From contig NZ_FXZB01000001.1 in assembly GCF_900169065.1 (NCBI RefSeq), forward strand, positions 186,001 through 250,000: a stretch of DNA of 64,000 nt. The letters are read 5' to 3'. Positions 19,671 through 23,295 of this stretch are shown here, piece after piece. Position 1 is the first letter of the stretch, and each line of letters starts with the position of its first letter. A model generated the notes under the pieces. That model was not told the DNA's origin. It ran no database searches and saw only the letters and a program-made list of their open reading frames with translations. Made by a program: the position numbers and the translations under genes. This DNA comes from Brevibacterium aurantiacum (lineage in GTDB: Bacteria > Actinomycetota > Actinomycetes > Actinomycetales > Brevibacteriaceae).

Positions 19671-20861
19671 TCATCCTCCCGAGATGTCGAGTTCCGCCTC
19701 GGAGAGCAGTGACTTTCCGCTCACATCGAAGATGCGGGAGTCGAGCCACCCTTCGGGCAGATGCGGCTTCTTCGGGCGGGTCGTCCGCCCCCGGGAGCCT
19801 TCCGCGTCCGTACCAGGATACGGTGCGTCCTGATCAAGCTGAGCCAGCAGGCCCGCGAGCTCCTCGAGCGAGGAGACCATCGCCAGCTGACGCCGCAGGT
19901 CTCCCCCAACCGGATAGCCCTTGAAATACCAGGCAATGTGTTTGCGCAGGTCACGAACGCCGTAGAACTCGTCCTCGTAGTATTCGGCCAGGTACTCGCC
20001 GTGCTTGTAGACGGCGCGAGCCACCTCGGCGAGACCCGGCCGGAAGCGTTCATCGCTGCCGTTGAGGGCATTGGCGAGGTCGCCGAACAGCCAAGGTCGT
20101 CCCTGGCATCCGCGTCCGATGACGACGCCGTCGCAGCCCGTGCGGCGCATCATCTCAAGTGCATCCTCTGCCGCGAAGATGTCACCGTTGCCCAGAACCG
20201 GAACGGTGTCGCCGAGGTGGTCCTTGAGTCGGGCGATGGCGTCCCAGTCCGCCTGGCCCGAGTACAGATCCGCCGCGGACCGACCGTGGAGGGCGACCGC
20301 TGCCACACCCGCATTGCGGGCAGTCTCACCCGCGTCGAGGAAGGTCTGGTGGTCCTTGTCGATGCCTTTGCGCATCTTCACGGTCAGGGGGATGCCGCCG
20401 CGATCTGCCTCGGTCACGGCTGTGGTGACGATGGACTCGAACAGGTCCTTCTTCCACGGCAGGGCAGAGCCGCCGCCCTTCCGGGTGACCTTGGGCACGG
20501 GGCATCCGAAGTTGAGGTCGATGTGGTCGGCCCGGTCCTCCTCGACGAGCATGCGCACGGCCTGCCCGATCGTCACCGGGTCGACGCCGTAGAGCTGGAC
20601 CGAGCGCGGTGTCTCATACGGCTCGTGCCGGATGATGCGCATGCTCTTGGGGCTGCGTTCGACCAGCGCCCTGGACGTCACCATCTCTGTCACATACAGG
20701 CCGGCTCCGTACTCGCGGCACAGGCGCCTGAAGGCGGTGTTGGTGATTCCGGCCATCGGCGCGAGCACGACCGGCGAGGACAGCTCGATGGGACCGATGC
20801 GCAGGGGCTCGGCAGCGGCTGGGGATACTGATTCTGGGGCAGGGCTGATGACACTCACCAT
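19671..20861 (-). CDS. dusB: tRNA-dihydrouridine synthase
   Basis: A 396-residue FMN enzyme that reduces uridines in the tRNA D-loop. Its TIM barrel begins with VVLAPMAGITNTAFRRLCREYG, the catalytic Cys is in NFGCPVPKVTRKGGG, and the phosphate-binding segment is VIGRGCQGRPWLF. A C-terminal helical domain follows, with a short acidic and basic tail. It is translated before dgt, which nearly overlaps it. Confidence 0.94.
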   Translation of the reverse strand: MVSVISPAPESVSPAAAEPLRIGPIELSSPVVLAPMAGITNTAFRRLCREYGAGLYVTEMVTSRALVERSPKSMRIIRHEPYETPRSVQLYGVDPVTIGQAVRMLVEEDRADHIDLNFGCPVPKVTRKGGGSALPWKKDLFESIVTTAVTEADRGGIPLTVKMRKGIDKDHQTFLDAGETARNAGVAAVALHGRSAADLYSGQADWDAIARLKDHLGDTVPVLGNGDIFAAEDALEMMRRTGCDGVVIGRGCQGRPWLFGDLANALNGSDERFRPGLAEVARAVYKHGEYLAEYYEDEFYGVRDLRKHIAWYFKGYPVGGDLRRQLAMVSSLEELAGLLAQLDQDAPYPGTDAEGSRGRTTRPKKPHLPEGWLDSRIFDVSGKSLLSEAELDISGG

Positions 20862-20918: not shown

Positions 20919-22586
20919 TCACGATCGCGCATGTGAGGCCTCCTCAAACTCGTTCCTGTCTCCATCAACCTGCTCGTCTCCTTCAACCTGTTCGGGGAGA
21001 AGAAATTCCCGAATGTCCCATTCGACGTCGAGGCGCAGCTCCTCGGCGAGACGATCATCGTGGGTGATGACGATCATCGCTCCGCCGAATCCGTCCAGGG
21101 CGGTCACCAACGCAGTCAGCGAGGAAAGGTCGAGGTTGTTGCCTGGTTCGTCGAGGATGAGCAGCTGGGGCGCGGGGTTTTGGAGCAGACTCTTCGCCAG
21201 AGCCACTCGAAAGCGCTCCCCTCCCGACAATGTCGAACACAGCTGCTCGGTCCGTCCGGCCCTCAGCCCCATCGCGGCCAACACCTCATGAACTCGGTGT
21301 GGTCCGAGACCAGGGTTGTCCTCCCTCACGGCTTCCATGACGGTCAGCGTCGGCGGCAGCCTGTACTGCTGGTCGAGGAAGCCGCTGGACACGGGAACGG
21401 TGAAGGTCAGATCGGGGAACAGCTCGTTGATCGGGGCACCGGTGTCGTATCGCCCGGCGATCGCCGACAGCATGGTCGACTTCCCGGAGCCGTTGGCACC
21501 GGTCAGCCTGATCCGCTCGGGACCGACGATCGTACGTGGCTGCTCGAGCACCGGACCTGAGACCTCAAGGACACGCTTCGCCGAGTGGATCACGGTCTCG
21601 GGCAGGTCCAGGCGGATGCTTGAGTCCCTGCGCAGAGCGTCCTTGGCGGTGCGCACCGAGGAACGGGCGGCCTCCTCGTCGTCAGCCTTGTCTCCGCGTC
21701 GCTTCGCCGCGCTCTTCTGGGCGAAGTCGGTCAGACCATTCATGACGATCTTGGGTCGGCGTTTGTTCTCCTTGTCCTTGGCAGCCTTGCGATCGGCCCT
21801 GGCCAGCTTCGTCTCGAGTTCGATGCGCTGGCGCTTCTCGATCGCCAGGGACTTCTTGGCGTCGACGAGGTGAGCGAGCTTCGCCTCCTCTTCGGCGGCG
21901 ACCATGCGTTCGTAGTCGTCGAAGTCTCCACCGTAGATGCGCAGCTGGTCCGTCATCTCGACGATCGTCGTCACTTCCGCCAGCAGTGCACGATCGTGGG
22001 AGATCACGAGTGTCGGCCCCGTCCGGTCCCGCAGCAGGGAGGCCAGCCGGCGACGTCCCACCTCGTCGAGGTTGTTGCTCGGTTCGTCGAGAATCAGCCA
22101 GCGATCACCGGCCAGAGCCGCCCGCGCCAGTCCGATGCGCATGGCCTGACCGCCGGAGAAGGTCGACAGTCGCCGGTCAAGGGCCGCGGCATCGAGTGTG
22201 AGTCCGAGATCGGCCAGGGCGCTCAGCGCCCGTTCCTCGATGTCCCAGTCATCGCCGATGACGTCTAAGTCGGCGAAATCGGCGTCACCGGCCAGGGCCT
22301 TCGACAGTGCCGATCTGATCTCGCTGATTCCCAGGGTCGAGGCGACGCTGAGGTCGGTATGGGGCAGCAGCTGATCGATGTACACCGCGTCCTCGGCGCC
22401 GGTGACGGAGCCCGCGCTGGGGCGAAGCTGTCCGGCGATGATTCTGGCGAGGGTGGATTTGCCGATCCCGTTGTCACCGACCAGTCCGACAAGGGAGGCA
22501 GGGATCGATGCAGTGAGAGCAGTGAAGATCTCGGTGTCATCGCCGAGGCGGTAGCCGAGTTTCGAGAGAGATATGGCAGCAGTCAT
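20919..22586 (-). CDS. ABC-F family ATP-binding protein (ribosome-associated, possible antibiotic resistance)
   Basis: A 555-residue protein with two ABC domains and no membrane part. Domain 1 has GDNGIGKST, the signature FSGGQAMRIGL and Walker B WLILDEPSNNLD. Domain 2 has GANGSGKST, LSGGERFRVAL and LLILDEPGNNLD. The linker between them is long, charged and helical (interdomain region with KLARADRKAAKDKENKRR), as in ABC-F proteins that enter the ribosomal E site. These either adjust translation or protect ribosomes from antibiotics. The ATG at 22586 has AGGA 6-7 bases upstream, and an alternative in-frame ATG at 22598 overlaps the stop of the leader ORF as ATGA. Confidence 0.9.
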   Translation of the reverse strand: MTAAISLSKLGYRLGDDTEIFTALTASIPASLVGLVGDNGIGKSTLARIIAGQLRPSAGSVTGAEDAVYIDQLLPHTDLSVASTLGISEIRSALSKALAGDADFADLDVIGDDWDIEERALSALADLGLTLDAAALDRRLSTFSGGQAMRIGLARAALAGDRWLILDEPSNNLDEVGRRRLASLLRDRTGPTLVISHDRALLAEVTTIVEMTDQLRIYGGDFDDYERMVAAEEEAKLAHLVDAKKSLAIEKRQRIELETKLARADRKAAKDKENKRRPKIVMNGLTDFAQKSAAKRRGDKADDEEAARSSVRTAKDALRRDSSIRLDLPETVIHSAKRVLEVSGPVLEQPRTIVGPERIRLTGANGSGKSTMLSAIAGRYDTGAPINELFPDLTFTVPVSSGFLDQQYRLPPTLTVMEAVREDNPGLGPHRVHEVLAAMGLRAGRTEQLCSTLSGGERFRVALAKSLLQNPAPQLLILDEPGNNLDLSSLTALVTALDGFGGAMIVITHDDRLAEELRLDVEWDIREFLLPEQVEGDEQVDGDRNEFEEASHARS

Positions 22587-22591
22587 GTGTG

Positions 22592-22672
22592 TCCTCATTT
22601 CGTGCACAGAAGTGCGTTGCGGGTCCGTAGCACCCGCATGATGCGGAAATGAGGAATTACTTCACGAAATGA
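22592..22672 (-). promoter_or_regulatory. Putative translational attenuator of the ABC-F gene
   Basis: Transcript order is arm A TCATTTCGTG (22672-22663), arm B TCCTCATTTC (22655-22646), a 14-codon ORF, then the target CACGAAATGAGGA (22604-22592) that contains the ribosome binding site of the ABC-F gene. Arm A pairs with 10 bases of the target, and arm B pairs with 10 overlapping bases including AGGA; the two pairings exclude each other. A 7-bp hairpin (22618-22638) lies inside the leader ORF. This layout suits ribosome-controlled access to the start. TTGACA at 22692-22697 is a possible -35. If transcription begins close to it, arm A may not be in the RNA. Confidence 0.6.
22595..22639 (-). 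CDS. Leader peptide upstream of the ABC-F gene
   Basis: A 14-codon ORF reading MRVLRTRNALLCTK, whose stop TGA (22595-22597) overlaps a possible ABC-F start (ATG 22596-22598) and lies 8 bases before the preferred ABC-F ATG. There is no good Shine-Dalgarno sequence before its own ATG. Short peptides with basic residues in front of ABC-F genes are known sensors of ribosome-targeting drugs; the function of this one is inferred from position and RNA structure only. Confidence 0.55.
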   Translation of the reverse strand: MRVLRTRNALLCTK

Positions 22673-22746
22673 CTGTCTTTCGCCGGGAATGTGTCAAGTC
22701 AAGGATGCCGGAGGTCGGCCGTCCTCGTCAAGGGCTGTTGCGAATC

Positions 22747-23295
22747 TCAGACGATGATGAGCATGAGCTCCGCCGGCTCGTTTCCGGGGTTGGACAGCTG
22801 GTGCGGAACATCGCCGGGCGCCTGCGCACAGTCTCCGACCCGCAGGGTGGTCCGGCGATCGATCGTGACGATTTCGATGGTGCCGGCGAGCACGAAGAAG
22901 GTCTCACGGGAGCCGCTGCGGTGAGCGGCGAAGGATGCTGTTTCGCAGTGCGGATCAAGCTTGTAGTGCACGACCTCCATGTTCTCCTGCGGAGCGGGGA
23001 GGTCTCGGCGCAGAGTGCCTCTGCCGTATGCGCTGTGAGCGGGAATGGCAGCACTGGAGGTGATGACCACTTCGGGCGGGGCGAGGAGCTCTCCCACATC
23101 CACGCCGAGGGCACGGGAGAGCCCCATGGCGTTCGAGACCGATGTGTCCTGTTCCCCACGTTCGATCTTCGACAAGGCCGCTCGGGAGATTCCGGCGCGC
23201 ACAGCAAGTTCGTTGAGCGTCAGGTCGTTGTACTTGCGGCGCGCCCTGATGCGCGCGCCGAATACTCGAGCTCCGAGGTCCTCTGTGTTCACCAT
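22747..23295 (-). CDS. XRE-family regulator with C-terminal cupin domain
   Basis: A 182-residue protein. A helix-turn-helix of the Cro/XRE type fills residues 9-65 (LTLNELAVRAGISRAALSKIERG), and residues 105-182 form a small cupin barrel (HRSGSRETFFVLAGTIEIV, APGDVPHQLSNPGNEPAE). Such regulators sense small metabolites and often control neighbouring catabolic or transport genes. It is divergent from the LctP-family permease, the most likely target. The ATG is 6 bases after TATGAT (minus strand), which suggests a leaderless message. Confidence 0.88.
   Translation of the reverse strand: MVNTEDLGARVFGARIRARRKYNDLTLNELAVRAGISRAALSKIERGEQDTSVSNAMGLSRALGVDVGELLAPPEVVITSSAAIPAHSAYGRGTLRRDLPAPQENMEVVHYKLDPHCETASFAAHRSGSRETFFVLAGTIEIVTIDRRTTLRVGDCAQAPGDVPHQLSNPGNEPAELMLIIV

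Follow-up and report, generated by a model that had tools for sequence, protein, structure and literature searches.

Described leaders of ABC-F genes and the Brevibacterium locus

In translational attenuators of the ermC type, a stalled ribosome masks one arm of the leader and the SD of the resistance gene is freed; these attenuators require that a longer nascent peptide occupy the exit tunnel. For the ARE5 ABC-F genes tiaA and are5sc of Streptomyces coelicolor, LSAP drugs stall the ribosome at the start codon of a short uORF of nine (MVGDDDISG) or three (MLV) codons, respectively, within leaders of 194–232 bp that contain predicted terminators; tiaA looks translationally controlled (PMC12421871). 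PLSA-type ABC-F genes of Firmicutes have leaders that, according to the accessible parts of the sources, encode MR[I/M] (cplR), MIN (vmlR), MK[L/Q] (vmlR2), and MAGN (lsaA) (PMC10201436, PMC9226507), and lmrC is described in the accessible part of its source as a transcription attenuator (PMC8546547). Two-codon minigenes that act in cis to alter how the following gene is expressed are reported for axe-txe and for LEE1 of EHEC in the accessible part of another source (PMC8708949).

The window (the whole 64,000-nucleotide stretch of Brevibacterium aurantiacum DNA that was analyzed) contains an ABC-F gene whose leader, from the predicted transcript start to the ABC-F ATG, spans about 110 nt (Table 1). 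We consider it likely that this leader is a translational attenuator in which a two-codon ORF (hereafter the mini-ORF) senses arrest at the start codon, and it would thereby respond to drugs. As in tiaA and are5sc, a short uORF lies upstream of an actinobacterial ABC-F gene and stalling at the start codon is proposed; unlike those leaders with nine or three codons and predicted terminators, the Brevibacterium leader has two codons, yielded no terminator in our scan, and is shorter. Likewise, the cplR, vmlR, vmlR2, and lsaA leaders, as far as the accessible parts of the sources describe them, use a very short uORF for initiation-stage drugs and keep the ABC-F SD sequestered until the ribosome stalls, whereas they have three to four codons and combine this with transcription attenuation. 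The proposed masking logic is shared with the ermC type, with the difference that a dipeptide cannot act via the exit tunnel. The axe-txe and LEE1 minigenes also place a two-codon ORF upstream and act in cis on the next gene; in the accessible part of that source, however, their effects follow distance and mRNA stability, and neither drug sensing nor an anti-SD arm is described. A search of the open literature, supplementary files excluded, found no two-codon drug-sensing leader. Translational attenuation of ABC-F genes is already known, and the two-codon leader would be a novel form of it.

Table 1. Features of the ABC-F leader and neighboring genes (positions count from the first base of the window)
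Feature	Position	Strand	Remark
-35-like hexamer TTGACG, predicted promoter	22726-22731	minus	lenient pattern, 36/36 leaders
-10-like hexamer CATCCT, predicted promoter	22702-22707	minus	lenient pattern
Weak SD-like GAAAGAC ahead of mini-ORF	22675-22681	minus	in the window, AAG is the only match
Arm A, TCATTTCGTG	22672-22663	minus	last three bases are the start codon of the mini-ORF
Mini-ORF, GTG AAG TAA (fMet-Lys-stop), proposed sensor	22657-22665	minus	kept in 36/36 leaders
Arm B, TCCTCATTTC, anti-SD	22655-22646	minus	pairs with SD region in 36/36 leaders
Apical hairpin GCGGGT...ACCCGC	22619-22637	minus	five of six pairs near-invariant
Small hairpin GCAC-TTCT-GTGC	22604-22615	minus	variable in relatives; shorter in G006, G050
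14-codon ORF, MRVLRTRNALLCTK and stop	22639-22595	minus	start and frame in 19/36 leaders
Target, CACGAAATGAGGA	22604-22592	minus	22592-22601 part is GAAATGAGGA; ABC-F SD GAGG 22596-22593
ABC-F ATPase gene	20919-22586	minus	555 aa; ABC_tran E 4.1e-38; NF000355 is best NCBIfam model
Cupin-type helix-turn-helix gene	22747-23295		precedes ABC-F gene
dusB-like gene	19671-20861		comes after ABC-F gene

The ABC-F protein has two ABC_tran stretches, and its match to NF000355 scores 272 bits, below the cut-off of the model (380). Judged from its sequence, it is probably of the ribosome-protection type, and the gene an antibiotic-resistance gene; the closest named homologs are from Brevibacterium species (up to 87% identical). 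The most likely start codon is the ATG at 22586–22584. A second ATG (22598) does overlap the TGA of the 14-codon ORF, as the original prediction had it, and is in frame in the window; as a possible ABC-F start it fared worse, one extra leader base between the two codons putting it out of frame in G020.

Under a lenient pattern, with the best pair taken, all 36 leaders compared (see below) contain TTGACN and xAxxxT at a spacing of 17–18, 36–38 nt before the mini-ORF start; a stricter consensus scan of 22500–22800 returned no sigma-70-like promoter. Transcription would start near 22695, upstream of both arms, so that, if the predicted promoter is right, arms A and B are both transcribed. Between promoter and mini-ORF, most leaders share a CATTYCCG block (22684–22691) of no obvious role. 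In G048 (L144:213-290), a palindrome with arms of 39 nt (92% complementary, no spacer) immediately precedes the ABC-F promoter, and similar text occurs in some other leaders; the palindrome may be a repeat element or may terminate the preceding gene. An attenuator of the vmlR/lmrC type, acting on transcription, was set aside: the scan of 22500–22800 gave no terminator-like site between leader ORF and gene, though a non-canonical terminator may be present.

Pairing of the leader with the ABC-F ribosome binding site

Of the 57 Brevibacterium genomes in the genus sample, 45 carry an ABC-F homolog (E up to 1e-60), and complete leaders were counted in 36 of those 45 (34 distinct sequences). G051 (contig end) and G013 (match from residue 138, no leader read) were left out of the leader counts; in G013 (L159) the assembled gene lacks its N-terminal part and the upstream stretch contains the helix-turn-helix gene, and the absence of a leader there may reflect a deletion or an assembly fault. 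Seven genomes (G001, G009, G019, G022, G032, G033, and G054) carry only more distant ABC-F genes (39–50% identical) and were handled separately. The leader search used the hairpin that follows arm B as its anchor rather than the mini-ORF, and one alignment held 48 rows (some strains twice), the other the 34 distinct leaders; the 36 leaders were chosen by similarity to the window leader, and related species among them are not independent. A covariance model of the leader gave one match per genome in 36 of the 57 genomes, adjoining the ABC-F gene by coordinates, and under strict filters it matched nothing outside Brevibacterium among 297 genomes of the order (24 Brevibacterium).

The original prediction, drawn from the window alone, held that two upstream arms can each pair perfectly over 10 bases with one target containing the ABC-F ribosome binding site, that a 14-codon ORF ends on this target, and that such alternative pairings are unlikely by chance. 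On the minus strand, arms A and B are indeed perfectly complementary to the target over 10 bases each, and the ORF is present at its place in the window. The arms are the sole perfect 10-nt upstream complements of the 25 nt directly preceding the ABC-F ATG, the next best being 4 nt. One 10-nt arm arose in 19 of 5000 dinucleotide shuffles of the upstream part and in 16 of 4000 segments of 104 nt drawn at random from the window, and two arms arose in none of either, which bears out the judgment on chance.

RNA 22580–22690 folds at −39.2 kcal/mol (z = −4.04; none of 200 shuffles equally stable), and the predicted fold has arm B paired with the SD region. Among the relatives, this pairing comprises 7–10 contiguous bp (G-U allowed) in all 36 leaders. 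Compensatory changes, which the original prediction proposed to seek by ortholog alignment, were found on both sides at none of the 13 predicted pairs; since the core pairs between arm B and the SD region hardly vary among orthologs, covariation offers no proof of the pairing. Comparison and folding together support a translational attenuator before the ABC-F gene well, and as a conserved sequence element the attenuator is genuine.

Its named parts did not all hold up. Arm B was retained, as just described, whereas the 10-bp pairing of arm A with the target occurs in only two of the 36 leaders (one with a G-U pair), and arm A was rejected as a conserved alternative partner of the SD; the 14-codon ORF keeps its start and frame in 19 of the 36, and the conserved coding element is the mini-ORF, which the original prediction did not name.

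Of the six pairs in the apical hairpin, five are identical in 33 or 34 of the 34 distinct leaders. The letters of GCGGGTGCHACGGRCCCGC, which forms this hairpin (loop 22624–22637), are almost invariant across the 34 leaders, loop included, and the attenuator model gives no reason for this.

The two-codon ORF and simulated ribosome masking

The sequence GTG/ATG-AAG-TAA/TAG/TGA stands at a fixed place in 36/36 leaders and 34/34 distinct ones, with GTG (34) or ATG (2) as start and TGA (20), TAA (12), or TAG (4) as stop, and never TGG (GTGAAGTGA 18, GTGAAGTAA 12, GTGAAGTAG 4, ATGAAGTGA 2). When start–stop pairs of one to five codons were sought at 33 offsets upstream of arm B, the mini-ORF alone recurred in at least 3 of the 34 distinct leaders. 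Within the leader, no stretch longer than 3–5 nt is complementary to the 9-mer, and because the changes keep the ORF and the complements are so short, a reading frame fits the mini-ORF changes better than a paired element. At least four SD-matching bases precede the mini-ORF in 21 of the 36 leaders, and AAG only in 15, the window included; these SD-like bases lie 9–12 nt before the start codon, and their weakness in those 15 leaders counts against the proposed sensor. The CCTC of arm B occupies positions +12 to +15 of the mini-ORF (22654–22651), with one base changed in a few leaders. Most probably, the mini-ORF is the sensor.

In the proposed mechanism, fMet-Lys would be made on the mini-ORF when no drug is present, the ribosomes would leave, arm B would pair with the SD, and the ABC-F gene would hardly be translated. 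Lincosamides, pleuromutilins, and streptogramin A, which prevent formation of the first peptide bonds and arrest ribosomes at the start codons of longer ABC-F leaders, would hold the ribosome on the mini-ORF start codon; the front edge of the held ribosome, at about +15/+16, would then cover the CCTC of arm B and free the ABC-F SD, and the ABC-F protein so made would clear the drug from ribosomes. In the accessible part of the vmlR study, the 30S toeprint lies 16 nt beyond the first start-codon base (PMC9226507). The basis of this proposal is the conservation seen in the sequences for three features: the mini-ORF, its distance to arm B, and the pairing between arm B and the SD. Translation of the mini-ORF, the identity of the inducing drugs, altered expression, and the role of the ABC-F protein are predicted. 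Macrolides are predicted not to induce, because a dipeptide is too short to extend into the exit tunnel.

We simulated masking by folding each leader free or with a ribosome footprint held unpaired, and took the cost of opening the stretch from the SD through the start codon. In these simulations the ABC-F start site opens on masking: with a footprint on the start codon of the mini-ORF, the opening cost goes from 15.3 to 3.1 kcal/mol in the window, and its median over the leaders from 13.5 to 5.5 kcal/mol; the reduction is at least 3.0 in 36/36 leaders and takes place while the front edge of the ribosome moves past +11 to +15. The unpaired probability of the SD is a less favorable measure, by which the modeled effect is smaller (median 0.00 to 0.25 with the mini-ORF masked; 0.38 in the window; a rise of at least 0.3 in 9/36). 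Within a second subgroup, a local hairpin, ATGAG-GACC-CTCAT, still covers the SD and start codon in many leaders. This hairpin lies just before the ABC-F start (L053–L063, L144–L149) and is a possible second lock.

Competing readings, related leaders, and history

The original prediction cast the 14-codon ORF as the leader peptide and arms A and B as alternative partners of the SD, which we now regard as very unlikely. In the window, neither the ORF nor the arms are disrupted; 32 of the 36 leaders keep the frame to the target TGA (it is broken in G006, G050, G034, and G042), and 31 could have an ORF that runs into this TGA from codon 1 or from a GTG at codon 3. In simulation, a ribosome held on the first codon of the ORF would likewise open the start site (from 15.3 to 5.8 kcal/mol in the window, with a median of 6.3). 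Yet a usual start together with the frame is found in only 19 leaders, the first codon being ATG in 6 and ATG, GTG, or TTG in 21, so that the start of the peptide failed the conservation check set by the original prediction; residue 4 may be Leu, Gln, Pro, His, Lys, or Ile, no SD was seen before the ORF, and arm A fails to pair in most relatives. A ribosome at codon 6 leaves the simulated opening cost at 17.4 kcal/mol in the window and lowers it by at most 1.6 in any of the 36 leaders, and the peptide was rejected as the main sensor on these grounds. Its Arg-Thr-Arg resembles the macrolide-arrest motif +X+; a macrolide-arrest leader peptide was rejected given the same start-and-frame count and a codon 6 stall that frees nothing.

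It is also highly improbable that the mini-ORF serves as a relay, in which ribosomes that have made fMet-Lys reinitiate on the 14-codon ORF or at the ABC-F start and in which termination or reinitiation is read, not drug arrest. The start of the 14-codon ORF does lie 17 nt past the mini-ORF stop in the window, and two-codon minigenes acting in cis on the next gene are known, as far as the accessible part of the source goes (PMC8708949); such a relay, however, needs no fixed +12 spacing to an anti-SD arm, the start of the second ORF is not kept among the leaders, and the mixture of three stop codons speaks against a single release-factor signal. Unlikely, too, is a leader that merely lowers basal translation by burying the SD, whether constitutively or as a ligand or protein site, with GTGAAGTRA as an RNA or protein motif: the apical hairpin, conserved as well as the mini-ORF and with a role that the best model leaves unexplained, would fit, whereas all changes in GTGAAGTRA preserve start and stop, the 9-mer lacks a pairing partner in the leader, and Rfam gave no match at E up to 1 within 22400–22900.

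The proposed start-codon sensing by the mini-ORF can be set beside the leaders of related ABC-F genes. Among the more distant Brevibacterium genes, those of G054 and G032 have GTG GAG TGA and GTG AAC TGA, with CCTC likewise at +12, and those of G001 and G033 have GTG AAG TCA and onward, encoding MKSRLVLA and MKSRLATA. Simulated masking works in the two longer leaders (12.1 to 5.0 and 7.6 to 4.2 kcal/mol, respectively) and fails in the dipeptide leaders ME (9.7 to 10.5) and MN (7.9 to 7.3), to which the masking behavior was therefore not extended despite equal spacing. A further genus, g9 (20 genomes with a match), has three-codon ORFs (MKI, MKK, MKH, MEL) in all 17 leaders fetched; in the longer leaders of related ABC-F genes, such as the MKI leader of g9, the anti-SD lies at +9 to +12, about the mini-ORF distance. 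MEI, MKI, or MRI leaders occur in Planobispora, Nonomuraea, and Nocardiopsis, MKLAGSL in Kocuria, and an M-DDISG leader (tiaA type) with Streptomyces, Micromonospora, and Mycolicibacterium homologs whose ABC-F proteins are about 38–41% identical. An automated leader-ORF survey of other genera, which required at least four SD bases and chose by score, served as a guide only, as it missed the MK/ME/MN-type leaders L150, L151, and L153 and mis-picked L152.

A tree of 42 proteins places the 12 dipeptide-led rows in one Brevibacterium clade (100/99), with two MKSRL rows also inside, and Brevibacterium ABC-F proteins with other leaders elsewhere; the tree is unrooted, and five rows, all four M-DDISG rows among them, fill less than half of the columns. 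The simplest history, on this unrooted tree, is that an MKI-like leader lost its third codon. Evenly poised, in our estimate, is the stronger proposal that the leader is the shortest drug-sensing one described, a pure initiation-arrest sensor that reads only the time of the ribosome on the start codon and that arose inside Brevibacterium from the three-codon M-[K/E/R]-I of related genera by third-codon loss; the encoded peptide could not then matter, because only that time is read. If so, the lower limit for an antibiotic-sensing leader ORF would be one peptide bond, initiation arrest would be separated from nascent-peptide arrest in a natural system, inducer classes would be predicted by ORF length alone, and Brevibacterium, a genus of cheese and skin, would have a defined inducible ABC-F switch. 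The default minimum leader ORF of uORF4u is nine nucleotides, three codons, according to the accessible part of its source (PMC10219788), which suggests that minimum-length searches of this kind may miss two-codon elements.

Downstream of the three-codon ORFs of genus g9 (L170–L219), alternating copies of CCAGAC and GTCTGG were observed that could form mutually exclusive hairpins.
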